Shown: positions 47,208 to 54,602 of the stretch, in pieces
How positions within the stretch are numbered: position 1 is the first letter of the stretch
Layout: each line of letters starts with the position of its first letter
Assembly: GCA_903891095.1 (NCBI GenBank)
Contig: CAITDI010000051.1
Location: 1 to 64,000 of the forward strand
DNA length: 64,000 nucleotides
DNA from: an uncultured bacterium
Lineage (GTDB): Bacteria; Planctomycetota; Phycisphaerae; Phycisphaerales; SM1A02
Reading direction: 5' to 3'
Position numbers and translations under genes: made by a program
The notes under the pieces: model-generated
The model's database searches: none
What the model was told of the DNA's origin: nothing
Seen by the model: only the letters and a program-made list of their open reading frames with translations

Positions 47208-47235
47208 TTGACAGCCTCTGTTCCTGAACTATGTT
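47208..47235 (+). promoter_or_regulatory. Promoter of the first PAPG-tailed gene
   Basis: TTGACA (47208-47213), 16-base spacer, TATGTT (47230-47235). A leader of about 95 bases precedes the ATG at 47337. Confidence 0.6.
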
Positions 47236-47336
47236 TGGCGTGAGGGAGGGACACAGCGCAAAGGGGCGCTGAGTCTTTAAGGGAGAGTGCTGAGCCTACC
47301 TCAAGGCTCGCGCAAAAAGGAATTGGGAGACATTCA

Positions 47337-48050
47337 ATGAAGACTGGAATGATTGCGGCCCTCGCTGGCCTCACTGTTACTGGCATGGCTTCGGCCTCGT
47401 TCGTCGGTTACGTCGTCACCTCGGCGAACGTTTCGAACAGCGGTCAGAACCTGACCGTGTACACCGTCGCTGCGCGCTTCAACGGCGCGACCGACACCCT
47501 GCTCAACGCCTTCAACCTCGGCTCGACGTCCGGCGCTGGCGCGCTCAGCGGCTTCTGGCACAAGGACAACGACGAGTTCAGCAGCGGCGTGCTCACCCAG
47601 TCGGGCGGCTCCTGGAACCCAACGCTCACGGGCTCGGCTACTGCCAACCGTCCGTACGACTCGTACCTGACCATCGGTGGCCAGGCTGCTGCGACCAACA
47701 CGTCCACGGCTGACCCGTCGTGGAACACCGGCGGCAACACCTCCGCCGCTGGTTGGAACCGCCCCGACCTGCCGAACAACGGCACCCTCGGCTGGTTCAA
47801 CTCGTCGCCCCCGACCCTCCAGGGTCGCGTCGGCAACTCGCCGGGCCTCCCGACGACCGACGTCCGCGTCGCTCAGTTCGTGCTCTCGGCCAACGACTCG
47901 GTCGCTCGCACCTACCACCTCGAGGTCGGCTACAACAACGGCGTCGCGGGTTCCGCGGTGCAGTTCGGTACGGGTAGCTTCAGCCTCCCGGCTCCGGGCG
48001 CGGTTGCGGTCCTCGGTCTCGCCGGCCTCGCTGGCCGCCGTCGCCGCTGA
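47337..48050 (+). CDS. Secreted protein with PAPG-type sorting tail, paralogue 1
   Basis: 237 residues. A signal peptide (MKTGMIAALAGLTVTGMASA) is followed by a Thr/Asn/Ser-rich beta-type domain with FVGYVVTSANVSNSGQNLTVY, TDTLLNAFNL, FWHKDNDEFSSGVLTQSGGSW and RPYDSYLTIGGQ. The tail LPAPGAVAVLGLAGLAGRRRR is a proline motif, a hydrophobic helix and a terminal Arg block, the layout of PEP-CTERM sorting signals. I infer export, processing by an exosortase-like enzyme, and surface display. Two paralogues follow. Its own promoter and terminator (48081-48120) flank it. Confidence 0.85.
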   Translation: MKTGMIAALAGLTVTGMASASFVGYVVTSANVSNSGQNLTVYTVAARFNGATDTLLNAFNLGSTSGAGALSGFWHKDNDEFSSGVLTQSGGSWNPTLTGSATANRPYDSYLTIGGQAAATNTSTADPSWNTGGNTSAAGWNRPDLPNNGTLGWFNSSPPTLQGRVGNSPGLPTTDVRVAQFVLSANDSVARTYHLEVGYNNGVAGSAVQFGTGSFSLPAPGAVAVLGLAGLAGRRRR

Positions 48051-48080
48051 TCCGAAGCCAGCTTCGATTTAGCACTCTTC

Positions 48081-48120
48081 ACCCCGGTCGCGGTTCAATA
48101 CCGCGACCGGGGTTGTTTTT
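48081..48120 (+). terminator. Terminator of paralogue 1
   Basis: 13-bp stem CCCCGGTCGCGGT (48082-48094) with its complement at 48100-48112, TCAAT loop, then TTGTTTTT. Confidence 0.92.
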
Positions 48121-48570
48121 GTCCCAACCGAATACCCAACCGACTACCCAGCCACGTCCCCCATCGAATCCTTCGGCGGCCGCTTGCGGCGGCTGTTTCG
48201 CTCCCTCGCCGCACTCCTAGGGCAGCGATTCGTCGGTCTAAGCCGTTCTAGGACTGCGCCCCAGGAACAGCTGGATCGCGCGGCCAGTCGCCCTGAACAC
48301 CACCAAGTCCTTGGCCCGTCAATCTCTAGCCTGCATTGGCTTGATTCTGGGGCAGGTGCGGTAATTCAAAACTGCTCCGAAATCGCTCCGTCTGCGCAAA
48401 GTTTGGCTCGTGAGGTCTATTCCCCTGTGCTCGATGACTTCGCGCGCCTACCCAACGTGGGTTGGGTCCTCGCGAGAAGGCATCGAGAACCCGTTTGGTT
48501 TCCCGTTCGCTTCCCCCCAAAACGCCTTGGCAAGCTTCCCCGCCAAGGAATCCCCCCGTAGGAGAGACCC
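48121..48570 (+). other. Long leader region upstream of paralogue 2
   Basis: 450 bases without a recognisable gene. Hairpins: CCCAAC/GTTGGG (48451-48466) and CCTTGGC/GCCAAGG (48525-48548), the latter just before the ribosome site AGGAG (48560-48564). The region may carry an upstream promoter and a regulated leader. Confidence 0.45.
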
Positions 48571-49314
48571 ATGAAGACTGCAATGATCGCTTCCCTCGCC
48601 GGCCTCGCTCTCGCTGGTTCGGCCTCCGCAACCTTCGTTTCGTACCAGGTCGTCAAGACCTCGGCCACGAACAGCGGCATCGCGCTGGACGTCTACGTCC
48701 TCTACGCCCGCTTCGACGGCGCGACCGATACCGTTCTCAACGCTTACAACCTCGCCCTGACCGCGGGCAGCGCTGGTAGCAACGACGCCTACGGCGCCTT
48801 CTACCACAAGGACAACGCGACCTCGAACTCCGGAGTCCTCCAGAAGTCCTTCGGCACGTGGAGCCCGGGCGCGACTGGTTCGGCCACTGCCAACCGTCCG
48901 TTCGACTCGTACCTCACCATCGGTGGTCTCCCGACCGCGACCAACTCGTCGTCGGCTGACCCGTCGTGGAACTCCGGCGGCACCGGCGCTCACGCTGGTG
49001 GCGCCGCTGGCTGGACCCGCCCCGACCTCCTCAACAACGGCGTGATCGGTTGGTTCAACGGCTCCCCGCCGAACAACCAGGGCCGCGTTGGTCTCGCTGG
49101 CAACACCGCGACTGACGTCCGCCTCGGACAGTTCGTCGTCGACGCTGGCGCGAACGCCGGCACCTGGACCCTCACGACTGCCTACAACAACGGCGTCGCT
49201 GGCTCTGCGGTTCAGTTCGCCAACGGCAGCTTCAGCCTCGGTGGCGCCGTCCCGGCTCCGGGCGCGCTCGCCCTCCTCGGCCTCGCTGGCTTCGCCGGCC
49301 GTCGCCGCCGCTGA
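48571..49314 (+). CDS. Secreted protein with PAPG-type sorting tail, paralogue 2
   Basis: 247 residues, closely related to its neighbours. Signal peptide MKTAMIASLAGLALAGSASA, then TFVSYQVVKTSATNSGIALD, VLYARFDGATDTVLNAYNL, YHKDNATSNSGVLQKSFGTWS, NRPFDSYLTIGGLPTATNSS and QGRVGLAGNTATDVRLGQFV. It ends AVPAPGALALLGLAGFAGRRRR. It differs from paralogue 1 mainly in loop insertions (GTGAHAGGAAG). AGGAGAG gives a strong ribosome site, and a separate terminator follows, so each copy is its own transcription unit. Confidence 0.85.
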   Translation: MKTAMIASLAGLALAGSASATFVSYQVVKTSATNSGIALDVYVLYARFDGATDTVLNAYNLALTAGSAGSNDAYGAFYHKDNATSNSGVLQKSFGTWSPGATGSATANRPFDSYLTIGGLPTATNSSSADPSWNSGGTGAHAGGAAGWTRPDLLNNGVIGWFNGSPPNNQGRVGLAGNTATDVRLGQFVVDAGANAGTWTLTTAYNNGVAGSAVQFANGSFSLGGAVPAPGALALLGLAGFAGRRRR

Positions 49315-49354
49315 TTCAGACAACTGAATCAACGAGATTCTCTGAGAATCAAAT

Positions 49355-49392
49355 CCACCGCCGCGGCTCGTCCGCGGCGGTGGTCTTTTTAC
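49355..49392 (+). terminator. Terminator of paralogue 2
   Basis: Perfect 12-bp stem CCACCGCCGCGG (49355-49366) with complement at 49372-49383, CTCGT loop, then TCTTTTTAC. Confidence 0.92.
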
Positions 49393-49813
49393 TTCATGCG
49401 CCAGTGCGCATCAGCCGCAAGCCCTTCGAAGCACAAGAGTTGCCCAAGTCCTTTTCGCAAAAGCACTTGCACGCCGAGCCCGCCGCGAGCGGGACTTCCG
49501 CAGATTTCTCCGCCAACTCTCTGCGCAAAGCCTCGGTAATTTTGCCGAAATCGCCGCCGAGGCTGCTTGACTGCTTTAGGAATGGGGACATCTTCAACAG
49601 TGAGGGTTGTTCGTGCGTCGCAAGGCGCACCCGGCTCCGAGCAATCGGAACTGGATGAGTTCGCAATAAAGGGCGAACTCTTCGACGGGACATAGGGACT
49701 TGAGTTGGTGTCCACCAGCTCGGGTGTAGATGGAATCGTGACTCGCCGTCCAAGCGAGTCTTTTGTCCCCTGTGTGTCCCTGTCCCCTGTTCCCCATTGC
49801 AAGGAGTGAGTTT
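49393..49813 (+). other. Long leader region upstream of paralogue 3
   Basis: About 420 bases without a convincing gene. A hairpin GACTCG/CGAGTC (49740-49760) followed by TTTTGTCCCC looks like an attenuator 54 bases before the ATG. C-rich TGTCCC repeats lie between it and the ribosome site AAGGAG (49801-49806). Confidence 0.4.
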
Positions 49814-50512
49814 ATGAAGCTTATGGCTCTGGCCCTCGCCGCCGCTGTGTCTAGCGCGGCCTCCGCGACCTTTGTTGAGTACGTCACGGTCAAGACCTCG
49901 GCGACCAACAGCGGCGTCGCCCTCGACGTCTACGTCCTCTACGCGCGCTTCAACGGCGCGACCGACACCGTCCTCAACGCGTTCAACTTCAACGCTGTTG
50001 GCGGCGCCACGACGAACGGCTTCTACCACAAGGACAACGCGACCTCGAACTCCGGCGTCCTCCAGAAGACCTTTGGCACCTGGAATCCGGCCGCGACCGG
50101 TTCGGCCGCTGCCAACCGTCCGTTCGACTCGTACCTCACCATCGGCGGTCTCCCGAGCGGCACGAACACCAGCTCGGCTGACCCGTCGTGGAACGCTGCT
50201 GGCAGCGCTGGCTGGAACCGCCCCGACGTGCCGAGCGGCTACAACGTCGGTTGGTTCAACGGCTCCCCGCCGAACTTCCAGGGTCGCGTTGGCGGCGCTG
50301 GCAACACGGCCACCGACGTTCGCCTCGGCCAGTTCGTGGTTGACGCGGGCGCCAACATCGGCACCTTCAACCTGAAGATCGGCTACAACGACGGCGTCGC
50401 GGGTTCCGCGGTGCAGTTCGCTGAGACGACCTTCTCCCTCGGCGCCGTTCCGGCTCCGGGCGCGGTTGCCCTCCTCGGTCTCGCTGGCCTCGCTGGCCGT
50501 CGTCGCCGCTGA
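49814..50512 (+). CDS. Secreted protein with PAPG-type sorting tail, paralogue 3
   Basis: 232 residues from the ATG at 49814 (AAGGAG 7 bases upstream); the frame extends to 49763 but that part is not signal-like. Signal peptide MKLMALALAAAVSSAASA, then TFVEYVTVKTSATNSGVALD and the same domain as paralogue 2, ending AVPAPGAVALLGLAGLAGRRRR. The signal peptide is unlike those of the other two copies, while the mature part and tail are closest to paralogue 2, suggesting later duplication of these two. Confidence 0.85.
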   Translation: MKLMALALAAAVSSAASATFVEYVTVKTSATNSGVALDVYVLYARFNGATDTVLNAFNFNAVGGATTNGFYHKDNATSNSGVLQKTFGTWNPAATGSAAANRPFDSYLTIGGLPSGTNTSSADPSWNAAGSAGWNRPDVPSGYNVGWFNGSPPNFQGRVGGAGNTATDVRLGQFVVDAGANIGTFNLKIGYNDGVAGSAVQFAETTFSLGAVPAPGAVALLGLAGLAGRRRR

Positions 50513-50580: not shown

Positions 50581-50617
50581 CACCCGCCGCAGCTTGCCTG
50601 CGGCGGGTGTCTTTTTG
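50581..50617 (+). terminator. Terminator of paralogue 3
   Basis: Perfect 12-bp stem CACCCGCCGCAG (50581-50592) with complement at 50598-50609, CTTGC loop, then TCTTTTTGC. Confidence 0.92.
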
Positions 50618-50798: not shown

Positions 50799-52232
50799 GT
50801 GAAAACGAGTCTGACTCTCGGCGGCTTGCTGCTCACCGGCACCGCGATCTTTGTTGGCCAGTTCCAGGCGACGGCCGTTCCCGGCACCGGCGGCGACGGC
50901 GGCACTGCTGCTGTTGGCCCTGACGTCATCGTCGGAGGTCTTCCCGACAACTCTCGCTACGCGCCCGGCACGTACAACGGCGTTGAGTACGCCGCGATGG
51001 CCTTCGGCACGACGAGCTGCAACATCGGCACCCAGCAGCTGCAGTGGCAGCCGAACCCGAGCAACCTTCACCCGACCATCCCGCAGAACGCGTACCGCAT
51101 CAAGAACGGCGCGATCGAACAGATCGGCCTCGGCTGGTGCAAGCATGGTTTCTGCGCGCTGCAGGAAACGCTTTGCGGAACTTGCACGCCGGCTGGCGCG
51201 GGCTGCCCGACGGTGCTTGGCATCGGTTGCTCCGATCCCTACACCTCGAGCCTGAACGGCGCGCAGTCTGACCTCAAGGGCCGTGGCCCGATCAACCCGT
51301 CGACGGGTGTGTTCTCCGGAACCTACACCGATCCGACTGCGCCGGCCACGCTTCCCGCGTCGCTCCGTGAGCGCGTCATGATCGCGCGCTCCGACCTCGA
51401 CCCCGCGCAGAATGCCGGCGCGATCTACATCGCTGAAGGCATGTACATCCACCAGCAGGACGCTGCCGCTGGCAACGACGACAACAACGCTTCCTATCGC
51501 GCGTTTACCGTCGGCGCCACGTGGTCGACCACGCTCGGCTACCCGATCACGCTCACCGGCGCGACCTTCCAGCAGCTGCCCGCGATCTTCGCGTGGCAGG
51601 CTTCGAATCCGACCGAAGTCAGCGTCAAGAGCTACGACGTGGCTGGCGACGGCCGCTTCATCATCGGCTTCCGCGTGTCGAACAACGGCAACGGCACCTG
51701 GCACTACGAGTACGCAGTGCACAACCTGAACTCGGATCGCGCCGGCGGTTCGTTCTCCGTGCCGATTCCGGCCGGCGTGAACGTGACCAACATCGGGTTC
51801 AAGTCGCCGAAGTACTTCAACGGCGAGGGTTACTCCAACGCGGCCTGGACTGCGACGCTGGCCAACGGCTCGCTGACCTGGGCTTGCGAGCCGAACACCA
51901 ACGCAAACGCCAACGCGCTCCGCTGGGCGACGCTCTACAACTTCCGCTTCGATGCCGATGTCGCTCCGCAGGCGAGCCTTGGCACCGCGACCCTTGGTCT
52001 GTGGAAGGACCCGACCGCGACCAGCACCGCCACCACGGCCACGCTGGGCGCGCAGGTCCCGGGCGTTCCGCCGCCGCCGCCGATCGTTGGCGACTACAAC
52101 CATGACGGTCTCGTGAACGCGACTGACCTCGCGACCCTGCTCAACGCGTGGGGTACTGCGGGTGGCGACCTGAACAGCGACGGCACGACCGATGCCTCCG
52201 ACCTCTCGACGCTGCTCAACAACTGGTCGTGA
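50799..52232 (+). CDS. Secreted protein with dockerin-like C-terminal repeats
   Basis: 477 residues from a GTG with AGGAG upstream. Signal-like start MKTSLTLGGLLLTGTAIFVG. The main part (residues 40-410) is a beta-rich domain with a Cys-rich patch (GWCKHGFCALQETLCGTCTP) and YHYEYAVHNLNSDRAGGSFSV-like strands; no family recognised. After a proline hinge (VPPPPPIVG) come two dockerin-like calcium loops: DYNHDGLVNATDLATLLNAW and DLNSDGTTDASDLSTLLNNW, which end the protein. In planctomycetes such tails mark exported proteins; whether they bind cohesins is unknown. A strong terminator follows. Confidence 0.82.
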   Translation: MKTSLTLGGLLLTGTAIFVGQFQATAVPGTGGDGGTAAVGPDVIVGGLPDNSRYAPGTYNGVEYAAMAFGTTSCNIGTQQLQWQPNPSNLHPTIPQNAYRIKNGAIEQIGLGWCKHGFCALQETLCGTCTPAGAGCPTVLGIGCSDPYTSSLNGAQSDLKGRGPINPSTGVFSGTYTDPTAPATLPASLRERVMIARSDLDPAQNAGAIYIAEGMYIHQQDAAAGNDDNNASYRAFTVGATWSTTLGYPITLTGATFQQLPAIFAWQASNPTEVSVKSYDVAGDGRFIIGFRVSNNGNGTWHYEYAVHNLNSDRAGGSFSVPIPAGVNVTNIGFKSPKYFNGEGYSNAAWTATLANGSLTWACEPNTNANANALRWATLYNFRFDADVAPQASLGTATLGLWKDPTATSTATTATLGAQVPGVPPPPPIVGDYNHDGLVNATDLATLLNAWGTAGGDLNSDGTTDASDLSTLLNNWS

Positions 52233-52254
52233 GACTGGTGAATCAAGATGATCA

Positions 52255-52287
52255 GGGAGGGGCCCTCGGGCCCCTCCCTTCTTTTTG
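52255..52287 (+). terminator. Terminator of the dockerin-tailed gene
   Basis: 10-bp stem GGGAGGGGCC (52255-52264) with complement at 52269-52278, CTCG loop, then TTCTTTTTG. Confidence 0.92.
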
Positions 52288-52292
52288 CCTGG

Positions 52293-54602
52293 ATGGCCGC
52301 CAACATGCTCTCGCCTTGCATCACGTTGCTGTGCTCGCTGCTGCTTTCGGCCTCGCCGAGCGCGCCGTCGCCACAACGCGTTGAGGGACTGCGGTCGTAC
52401 GTACTGCAGCCGATCGCGGTGCCCGCGGGGCTGCCCGAGCGCACCAACATCGCACTCGCGATCGACGGACGGACCGAGACACTGCGCCTCTTTCGCACGT
52501 CGATGCGATCGCCGACGGCGAAGCTGCTGCTCGACAAGGGCTCGGGCAAACTCGAGGAAGCACCGCTCCCGCCCGCGCACACCTATCGCGGAACGGTCGC
52601 GTCCAGCGGTGCGCGCGTGGCGGCGACGATCATCGACGGCAAGCTGTGGGCGATGATCGACGGTGCGGACGGCACCGTGTTCGTGCAGCCGGCGAGCGAG
52701 CTCCTCGCGGCGCGCGGCGTGACTGAGCACGTGGTGTATCGCCACTCCGACACGGTCCCCGCCGGCGACCACCATTGCGGCAACGACGAGATCAAGCTCG
52801 CGGAGCCCGACTGGATGCATGGAGTCCCGACCGACCCGCTGGCCGCGGGCGCTTCAGGCGTGCGACATGGCGGAGTCGCTGGCGGCGAAGGAGATGGAGG
52901 CGAGGGAGATGGCGGCGTCGCTGGCACGAGTCCGTTTGTCGCGGAGATCGCCTTCGACGCCGACTACGAGTTCTTCGTGCAGAACGGCTCGCTACCGAGC
53001 AGCACCGTGCTGGACATCGAGACGGTCATGAACAACGTCTCGCTCGTGTACGACCGCGACGCGAACATCTCGTATGAATACACCACGTTCGTCGTGCGCA
53101 CGACGGCGGCCGACCCGTACACGTCCACCGACATGAACACGCAGCTGTGCGAGTTCCGCACGCAGTGGAATGCCGCGCCGGAGAACCAGATCCAGCGTGA
53201 CGTAGCGCAGCTCTTCACCGGCAAGTCGATGAACGGCAGCGTGATCGGGCTCGCGTGGCTCGGCGTCGTGTGCAACCAGTCGGGAACAGCGTGCACGACA
53301 GCGGGCAACCTGGCGTACTCGTGCGTCGAGAGCCGCTTTACCACCATCGCGGACTACCGCACCGGACTGTCGGCGCATGAGATCGGACACAACTGGCAGG
53401 CGCAGCACTGCGATGCGGGCAACCCGTGCAACATCATGTGCTCGGTGATCAACGGGTGCCAAGGCACGACAGGCGCGAACCTCAAGTTCTCGACGTCGGA
53501 ACAGGCGCAGATCATCAACTATCGCAACACGGTGAGCTGCGACGCCGCGCTGCCGCCACCGATCGCGCTGCCGTTCGTCGACGGGTTCGACGCGAGCATC
53601 GCGGTGAACACGAACAACTGGACCTATGTGAAGGGCGCGGTGGTCACGACCGCCGCGGTCGGCGAGCCGAGCCCGACGCGGTCGCTCAATCTCGATGCGC
53701 TTGGCGCGCTTGAGTATGGCGACGACGAGGTGCGATCGAACTTCATGCTGCTCGGCGGGCTGGCGACGGCCACGGCGAGCTACGCGACCGAGCACATCGG
53801 CGTCGAGGCGGGCAAGCAGCTCGTCGTCGAGTACCTCAATGCATCGCTCGAGTGGGCGCCGCTCAACACCATCACGTCCAACGGGATCAACCAGTCGGGC
53901 TTTCAGCAGTGGTCGCACACGCTGCCTGCGGACGCGCTGCACAACAAGTTCAGGCTGCGATTCCGCGCGGCCGTCGACGCGCAGGATGACGACTGGTACA
54001 TCGACGACGTGCGCGTGGTCACCGTCGTGATCCCCGCCAACGACGAGTGCAGCGCCGCACCGATCGTGGGCGAGGGCGCGCATGTGTTCGACTCGACCAC
54101 CGCGACCGACAGCGCGACCGCGCTGCCTGCCAGTTGCGACGAGGGCGCGGGAACGGCGATGAAGCACGACCTCTGGTACCTCTATGTCCCGACCTGCTCG
54201 GGCAACGCCACGGCGTCGACTTGCGGAACTGCGGCGTTCGACACGCGCCTGTCGGCGTACCGATTGACATGTCCGCCGACAGGCTCGCTGATCGCGTGCA
54301 GCGACAACGCGTCGGGCTGCACCGCGGGAACGTCGAGCATGACGTTTCCCGTAGCCGCCGGCGCCGGCGTCCTGATCCGCGTCGGCGGCGCGACGACGGG
54401 CGGCTTTGGCGTGCTCAACCTGAGCTGCGTCGCTGTCGTGCCGTGCGATGCCGACCTCAACAGCGATCATGTGGTGAACTCGACGGACCTCTCCGAAATC
54501 CTCAACGCGTGGGACACGCCCAACGCCGACATCAACGGCGACGGCAACACCGACTCGGCGGATCTCGCCTTGTTGCTGAACGCGTGGGGCGCTTGCCCGT
54601 GA
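52293..54602 (+). CDS. Secreted metzincin-type metalloprotease with dockerin-like tail
   Basis: 769 residues. Signal peptide MLSPCITLLCSLLLSASPS (from the ATG at 52293 or 52305). A prodomain of about 180 residues precedes a catalytic domain with HEIGHNWQAQHC near residue 375 (HExxHxxxxxH) and CNIMCS as the Met-turn, both typical of reprolysin-like metzincins. Then a jelly-roll region (LPFVDGFDASIAVNTNNWTY), a Cys-rich domain, and a pair of dockerin-like loops (DADLNSDHVVNSTDLSEILN and DINGDGNTDSADLALLLNAW). It probably digests extracellular protein. The ATG lies 61 bases after the previous stop and just past the terminator. Confidence 0.88.
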   Translation: MAANMLSPCITLLCSLLLSASPSAPSPQRVEGLRSYVLQPIAVPAGLPERTNIALAIDGRTETLRLFRTSMRSPTAKLLLDKGSGKLEEAPLPPAHTYRGTVASSGARVAATIIDGKLWAMIDGADGTVFVQPASELLAARGVTEHVVYRHSDTVPAGDHHCGNDEIKLAEPDWMHGVPTDPLAAGASGVRHGGVAGGEGDGGEGDGGVAGTSPFVAEIAFDADYEFFVQNGSLPSSTVLDIETVMNNVSLVYDRDANISYEYTTFVVRTTAADPYTSTDMNTQLCEFRTQWNAAPENQIQRDVAQLFTGKSMNGSVIGLAWLGVVCNQSGTACTTAGNLAYSCVESRFTTIADYRTGLSAHEIGHNWQAQHCDAGNPCNIMCSVINGCQGTTGANLKFSTSEQAQIINYRNTVSCDAALPPPIALPFVDGFDASIAVNTNNWTYVKGAVVTTAAVGEPSPTRSLNLDALGALEYGDDEVRSNFMLLGGLATATASYATEHIGVEAGKQLVVEYLNASLEWAPLNTITSNGINQSGFQQWSHTLPADALHNKFRLRFRAAVDAQDDDWYIDDVRVVTVVIPANDECSAAPIVGEGAHVFDSTTATDSATALPASCDEGAGTAMKHDLWYLYVPTCSGNATASTCGTAAFDTRLSAYRLTCPPTGSLIACSDNASGCTAGTSSMTFPVAAGAGVLIRVGGATTGGFGVLNLSCVAVVPCDADLNSDHVVNSTDLSEILNAWDTPNADINGDGNTDSADLALLLNAWGACP

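Follow-up and report, generated by a model that had tools for sequence, protein, structure and literature searches.

A predicted lineage-specific variant of the PEP-CTERM signal at the ends of three paralogous exported-type proteins in the Phycisphaerales

Introduction

Among described systems, PEP-CTERM sorting (TIGR02595 and PF07589; EpsH, PF09721; PMC1569441) is the closest to the locus analysed here, an array of three genes in a 64,000-nucleotide stretch of DNA (hereafter the window) from an uncultured bacterium of the Phycisphaerales. The PEP-CTERM layout is tripartite, with a motif, a hydrophobic stretch and an Arg cluster (PMC3237569). The tails of the array share with it the place at the C-terminus, over about 24 residues, and the succession of motif, hydrophobic stretch and Arg cluster at the extreme end. 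Likewise, their bearers have an N-terminal signal and are numerous and unrelated within one genome, and an exosortase is found next to exopolysaccharide-type genes and DUF3485. The two differ in the motif, where the central Glu is replaced here by Ala and Gly usually follows the second Pro.

Other systems resemble the locus in part. The exosortase variants named in NCBIfam (XrtC/VPDSG, XrtD/VPLPA, XrtW and others) also pair a lineage-specific motif with a distinct exosortase, but the candidate enzyme described below, on contig C82, falls under every subfamily cut-off, the best being XrtW with 139 bits against 425. MYXO-CTERM (TIGR03901) and GlyGly-CTERM (TIGR03501) have the same tripartite layout, whereas the window tails carry neither a Cys nor a glycine-rich motif before the helix. 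Finally, the dockerin type I module (PF00404), with 73 matches in the whole genome, is an alternative C-terminal module on the same ectodomain (contig C28) and ends both genes downstream of the array; unlike the PAPG tail, it is globular and built of repeats, and it lacks both the hydrophobic stretch and the Arg cluster.

Judged by its sequence, the tail is a lineage-specific variant of the known PEP-CTERM signal, and a separate, novel sorting system is not implied. We file it as a variant because the Pro-Glu-Pro signature is absent, the three window tails having PAP and the other listed tails P-[AST]-P. An earlier mention of the PAP variant was not found in the literature searched; the main exosortase/archaeosortase paper lay outside that search, so one may exist.

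Results and Discussion

Three paralogues with a common tail

A first, sequence-only reading of the window had described three paralogous exported-type proteins with a PAPG...GRRRR tail. This description is correct: three intact paralogous ORFs lie head to tail, each with a ribosome site and a hydrophobic signal-like N-terminal stretch ending in ASA. The features of the region are the following.

47208..47235, plus strand: promoter-like site of copy 1 (TTGACA, 16 nt, TATGTT; 10/12 in a consensus scan)
47242..47325, plus strand: likely structured RNA leader of copy 1, two hairpins (conservation in four relatives; single-sequence fold z -2.2)
47337..48050, plus strand: copy 1, class A, 237 aa (signal peptide, ectodomain, PAPG tail)
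47988..48047, plus strand: PAPG...GRRRR tail of copy 1 (tail-profile match 47982-48047, E 1.6e-10)
48081..48113, plus strand: terminator-like hairpin after copy 1 (14 pairs, 11 of them G-C)
48571..49314, plus strand: copy 2, 247 aa (class-A-like signal peptide, class-B-like core, PAPG tail)
49243..49311, plus strand: tail of copy 2 (tail-profile match, E 2.2e-11)
49355..49383, plus strand: terminator-like hairpin after copy 2
49814..50512, plus strand: copy 3, class B, 232 aa (signal peptide, ectodomain, PAPG tail)
50441..50509, plus strand: tail of copy 3 (tail-profile match, E 5.2e-11)
50581..50609, plus strand: terminator-like hairpin after copy 3
50799..52232, plus strand: neighbour, exported protein with a C-terminal dockerin type I module (PF00404, E 6e-8; 75% identical in the related locus L034)
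52248..54602, plus strand: neighbour, reprolysin-type metalloprotease with a dockerin at its end (PF13688 and PF00404; 66% identical in L034)

The start of copy 3 is most likely the ATG at 49814, preceded by AAGGAG; the TTG at 49763, which gives the longest ORF, is disfavoured. At the protein level, identity to copy 1 is 64% for copy 2 and 62% for copy 3. Copies 2 and 3 are the closest pair, as had been stated, with 79% nucleotide identity against 71% and 70% for the other two pairs, and the strong terminator attributed to each copy is borne out by a hairpin followed by a T-run 3' of every gene. The tail PAPGA[VL]A[VL]LGLAG[LF]AGRRRR is common to all three. A search of a plasmid collection returned no relative.

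TIGR02595 and PF07589 miss most of these tails. The three window proteins stay below the curated cut-offs (at best 13.9 bits for TIGR02595, cut-off 16, and 16.8 bits for PF07589, cut-off 20.7), and no NCBIfam model searched against them rose above its cut-off. A tail on contig C31, VPAPSAIALLGLAGVGMSRRRRA, is over the curated PEP-CTERM cut-offs of both Pfam and NCBIfam, and one on contig C40, IPAPGSLALLGLAGIVGRRRRR, is over that of NCBIfam (TIGR02595).

The tail as a genome-wide tag

Searching with a profile built from the three proteins brought in some 25 more, many of them via their last 25-50 residues alone. Tails in the genome were then counted through searches with a profile of 23 columns built from 19 tails. 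The 3.6-Mb genome has 40 matching places at E<=1 and 32 at E<=1e-4, two of these 32 being mirror-image halves of contig C112. Matches, with E down to 1e-12, stand at the extreme ends of dozens of ORFs, a recurrence far above chance. The motif is thus much wider than the three genes; a restriction to them would have refuted the sequence-only reading by its own terms. Most bearers have no mutual similarity outside the tail, their N-termini resemble signal peptides (by eye), and the motif that precedes the helix hardly varies across these unrelated proteins (19 tails).

More tandem groups of tail bearers are found on contigs C40, C18, C91 and C122. The one on C40 (L049, 2758-5175) is a second three-gene tandem array with PAPG tails and a different ectodomain. 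The mirror matches of contig C112 (L044 and L045, 6494-7129 and 22960-23595), seen for dockerin as well, belong by appearance to a perfect inverted duplication, probably an assembly artefact.

Among 101 sampled genomes of the order, 88 have tail-profile matches and all have an exosortase. The spelling of the tail changes with the family: VPEPASLALLGLGGL..RRRK in f5 and f6 (VPEPASLALLGLGGLAMLRRRK and similar), VPAPSSLALLGLAGF..RRRR in f2 and f3 (for example VPAPSSLALLGLAGFAARRRR, VPAPASLALLGLGGLAAARRRR and VPAPGTLALLGLAGFVSRRRR), and VPAPGAVALLGLAGL.GRRRR in the window's family (for example VPAPGAVALLGLAGLAGRRRR), where the PAPG spelling is present in 30/30 genomes. In the window's family, each genome has 5-44 matches to the PAPG profile and 0-4 to PF07589, and most f5/f6 genomes have PF07589 matches in tens and few or weak PAPG matches; the two profiles cross-hit, both of the weak f5/f6 PAPG matches that were read being VPEP tails, and the 15-35 weak PAPG matches of three f6 genomes (G026, G058 and G076) are counted by profile score alone. 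In a sample of 148 genomes of the phylum, a tail match was found in 11 and an exosortase match in 65, all 11 falling within the 65; the Fisher p of 7e-5 for this co-occurrence is uncorrected for kinship. Most of the co-occurrence comes from a single clade, and outside the order p is 0.15.

These observations bear on a simpler reading, according to which the tails are plain C-terminal membrane anchors that no sorting enzyme uses. A hydrophobic stretch followed by four arginines has the look of an anchor, even a very short tail of small residues could in principle suffice for this role, and the processing of the tails is itself a prediction. However, a mere anchor would have no need of a motif that is near-invariant across unrelated proteins, that shifts by lineage from PEP to PAP and that co-occurs with exosortases. 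We regard this explanation as very unlikely.

The exosortases and their probable pairing with the tail

No exosortase lies on the window's contig, as had been noted at the outset, and the suggested search of the rest of the genome brought out two of them on other contigs. Little can be read into the lack of a neighbouring exosortase, since the substrates are scattered genome-wide and the enzyme genes stand apart from them. Both enzymes, at C82:34697-35491 (type I) and C61:114871-115629 (type II), are intact. With PF09721 (cut-off 25.7) one scores 162 and the other 152 bits, and both pass the general model TIGR02602 of NCBIfam and none of its named subfamilies. The conserved Cys, Arg and His are present in both (C282, R327 and H347 in the C82 protein). 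Both loci are of the exopolysaccharide type with a DUF3485 neighbour, to which are added a Poly_export protein and a 1576-aa TPR protein near the C82 gene, and a large protein with a CobQ/ParA-type domain near the C61 gene.

In trees of 41, then of 58 exosortases, the enzymes fell into two ancient sets of orthologues: type I, with the C82 enzyme, and type II, with the C61 enzyme. We examined 17 tail-bearing genomes that have a single exosortase, 13 from the window's family and 4 from f2, this status being drawn from mostly draft genomes. Type I is the one present in 17/17, and these enzymes fall within a fully supported clade. The window's lineage differs from the related families that write VPEP in the central Glu, which is Ala, and in the usual Gly after the second Pro, and it has kept the orthologous enzyme. 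The retention of type I in all 17 genomes is the strongest evidence for the pairing, and we take the C82-type enzyme as the best candidate processor of PAPG tails.

The type II exosortase, alone or together with type I, could instead act on the PAPG tails, and its intact gene does stand in a similar locus. Against this, the same 17 genomes have PAP tails and no type II match, and one of them has 44 tail matches; a part for type II is therefore unlikely. An own substrate for this enzyme is conceivable, since an ORF near its gene (L047, contig C61, 16001-16732, minus strand) ends in VPIGAPAVLAGLGLIGVGLMRRRVK, possibly as a dedicated type II substrate with a different motif.

Rhombosortase, the GlyGly-CTERM enzyme, and myxosortase, the MYXO-CTERM one, were also considered as users of the tails, and bare tails do match TIGR03901, TIGR03382 and TIGR03501 weakly. 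Yet no rhombosortase of the genome is above cut-off (35 bits against 84), and an equal weak level was reached in 14/14 control genomes. The MYXO-CTERM motif is described, in PMC11980579, as carrying an invariant Cys, a residue absent from 19/19 tails. With no rhombosortase above cut-off and no Cys in the tails, we rejected both as processors, a role for either being extremely improbable.

The reading that we prefer, and hold to be quite probable, is that the three genes are paralogues of a family-specific secreted domain carrying the lineage's own PEP-CTERM signal, processed by the type I exosortase. By analogy with the PEP-CTERM model (PMC1569441, PMC3237569), from which we infer export, cleavage, final location and enzyme-substrate pairing, the protein would be exported by Sec via its N-terminal signal until the hydrophobic stretch halts it in the inner membrane, with the RRRR cluster facing the cytosol. 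The type I exosortase of contig C82 would then recognise the VPAPG motif on the outer side of the membrane and remove the tail through its Cys-Arg-His site, and the released protein would end up on the cell surface or in the exopolysaccharide matrix.

How could one orthologous enzyme serve both spellings? Among type I enzymes, those of PEP-users (f5, f6) stand apart from all others. Residue 226 (numbered as in the C82 protein) is basic, Lys or Arg, in 12/12 PEP-users, whereas in 28/31 others it is Thr, Ser, Tyr or Val; the exceptions are G096 (f1, Arg), G003 (f3, Lys) and G004 (f4, Arg), and both tails read in G003 are PAP despite its Lys. The type I exosortase may have switched its substrate code jointly with its substrates, from PEP (f5, f6) to PAP/PAPG (f1, f2), losing this membrane-proximal basic residue as the substrate Glu became Ala. 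We put this forward tentatively, and rather doubt it, because other columns separate the groups equally or better (Gln118 and Thr236, for example) and because the split is essentially one event. If true, such a change of specificity would give a natural starting point for working out how exosortases recognise their motif.

More generally, the series from PEP to PAP to PAPG, together with one orthologous and often sole exosortase, makes exosortase recognition testable through residue swaps. The curated models leave most tails unlabelled, and therefore much of the sorted surface proteome of the window's family (30/30 genomes sampled) goes unlabelled. Furthermore, an ectodomain followed in the same genome by the tail or by a dockerin provides a natural comparison of two C-terminal modules.

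The ectodomain and its genomic context

The ectodomain was found only in the window's family (19 of the 101 genomes of the order at E<=1e-12, with 1 to 10 matches each), and had no match in Pfam, NCBIfam or the PDB sequences. Its AlphaFold model is of low confidence (mean pLDDT 57), with a best Z of 5.5 to unrelated proteins; at most, it hints at an Ig-like beta-sandwich. The named relatives come from metagenome assemblies, including 'Phycisphaera sp.' and 'Planctomycetota bacterium'.

Relatives of the ectodomain on contig C28 end in dockerin modules, one after RCC1 repeats and another after MopE-type metal-binding motifs; they lie in a cluster of long exported proteins with ectodomain and dockerin and no PAPG tail (L042, 1546-16474, minus strand). 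Over 577 nt, the domain of copy 1 shares 92.5% identity with that of a dockerin-ended C28 protein of 2291 aa. Such closeness suggests that one domain was recently copied from a protein with one kind of C-terminus to a protein with the other.

The gene order of the window recurs in L034, with murG, ftsW and miaB upstream and the dockerin protein and metalloprotease downstream; four copies are enclosed there, and the flanking genes show 66-85% protein identity. In the ectodomain tree, class B (copy 3 and its relatives) forms one cross-species group; copy 2 sits at the base of this group, and copy 1 falls among the class-A relatives. Elsewhere, the ectodomain stands, by eye, in frame with a SUMF1-like (formylglycine-generating enzyme) C-terminus (L113, G054:C15, 2402-3382, minus strand), and contig C37 has two more tandem copies, the second frame-split and degraded-looking (L043, 2449-4442, minus strand).

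Switching and the leader of copy 1

The sequence-only reading had suggested that such arrays may produce switchable surface coats. The coat would then be phase- or antigen-variable, through alternate expression of the copies or recombination between them. Copy number does vary (three in the window, four in L034, three adjacent in G054), and in copy 2 the signal peptide is class-A-like and the core clusters with class B. However, we found no paired inverted repeats of the DNA-flipping kind and, between 43000 and 55000, no homopolymers of at least 7 nt; each gene has its separate terminator; classes A and B are old and common to several species; and the promoter and leader of copy 1 are conserved between species. 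The proposal finds no support in these results, and we consider a variable coat highly improbable. Copy 2 was also considered as a recent gene-conversion product and rejected as such, since sliding identities favour copy 3 over most of the core with no sharp breakpoint; by its sequence it looks mosaic-like. A nine-C run upstream of copy 2 is present in L034 only (6133), the window having six-C runs there.

L034, L035 and G002 all keep the promoter hexamer region in front of the orthologous gene. The leader of about 100 nt is conserved in the same three, and is also found in G075 and L114. When the arms of its two hairpins were aligned by hand in five sequences, every tabulated pair was kept, with both-side changes at four base pairs, so that the two-hairpin structure is likely real. 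Rfam gave nothing above threshold in the window, with chance-level matches only in the region, and the leader is without a family; it is possibly a new cis-regulatory RNA of a surface-protein gene. Upstream of class-A genes, its sites are at 47242-47325 in the window, 4965-5045 in L034 and about 7900-7985 in L035, and further sites lie at about 920-1005 in L102 (minus strand) and at 3778-3855 in L114.
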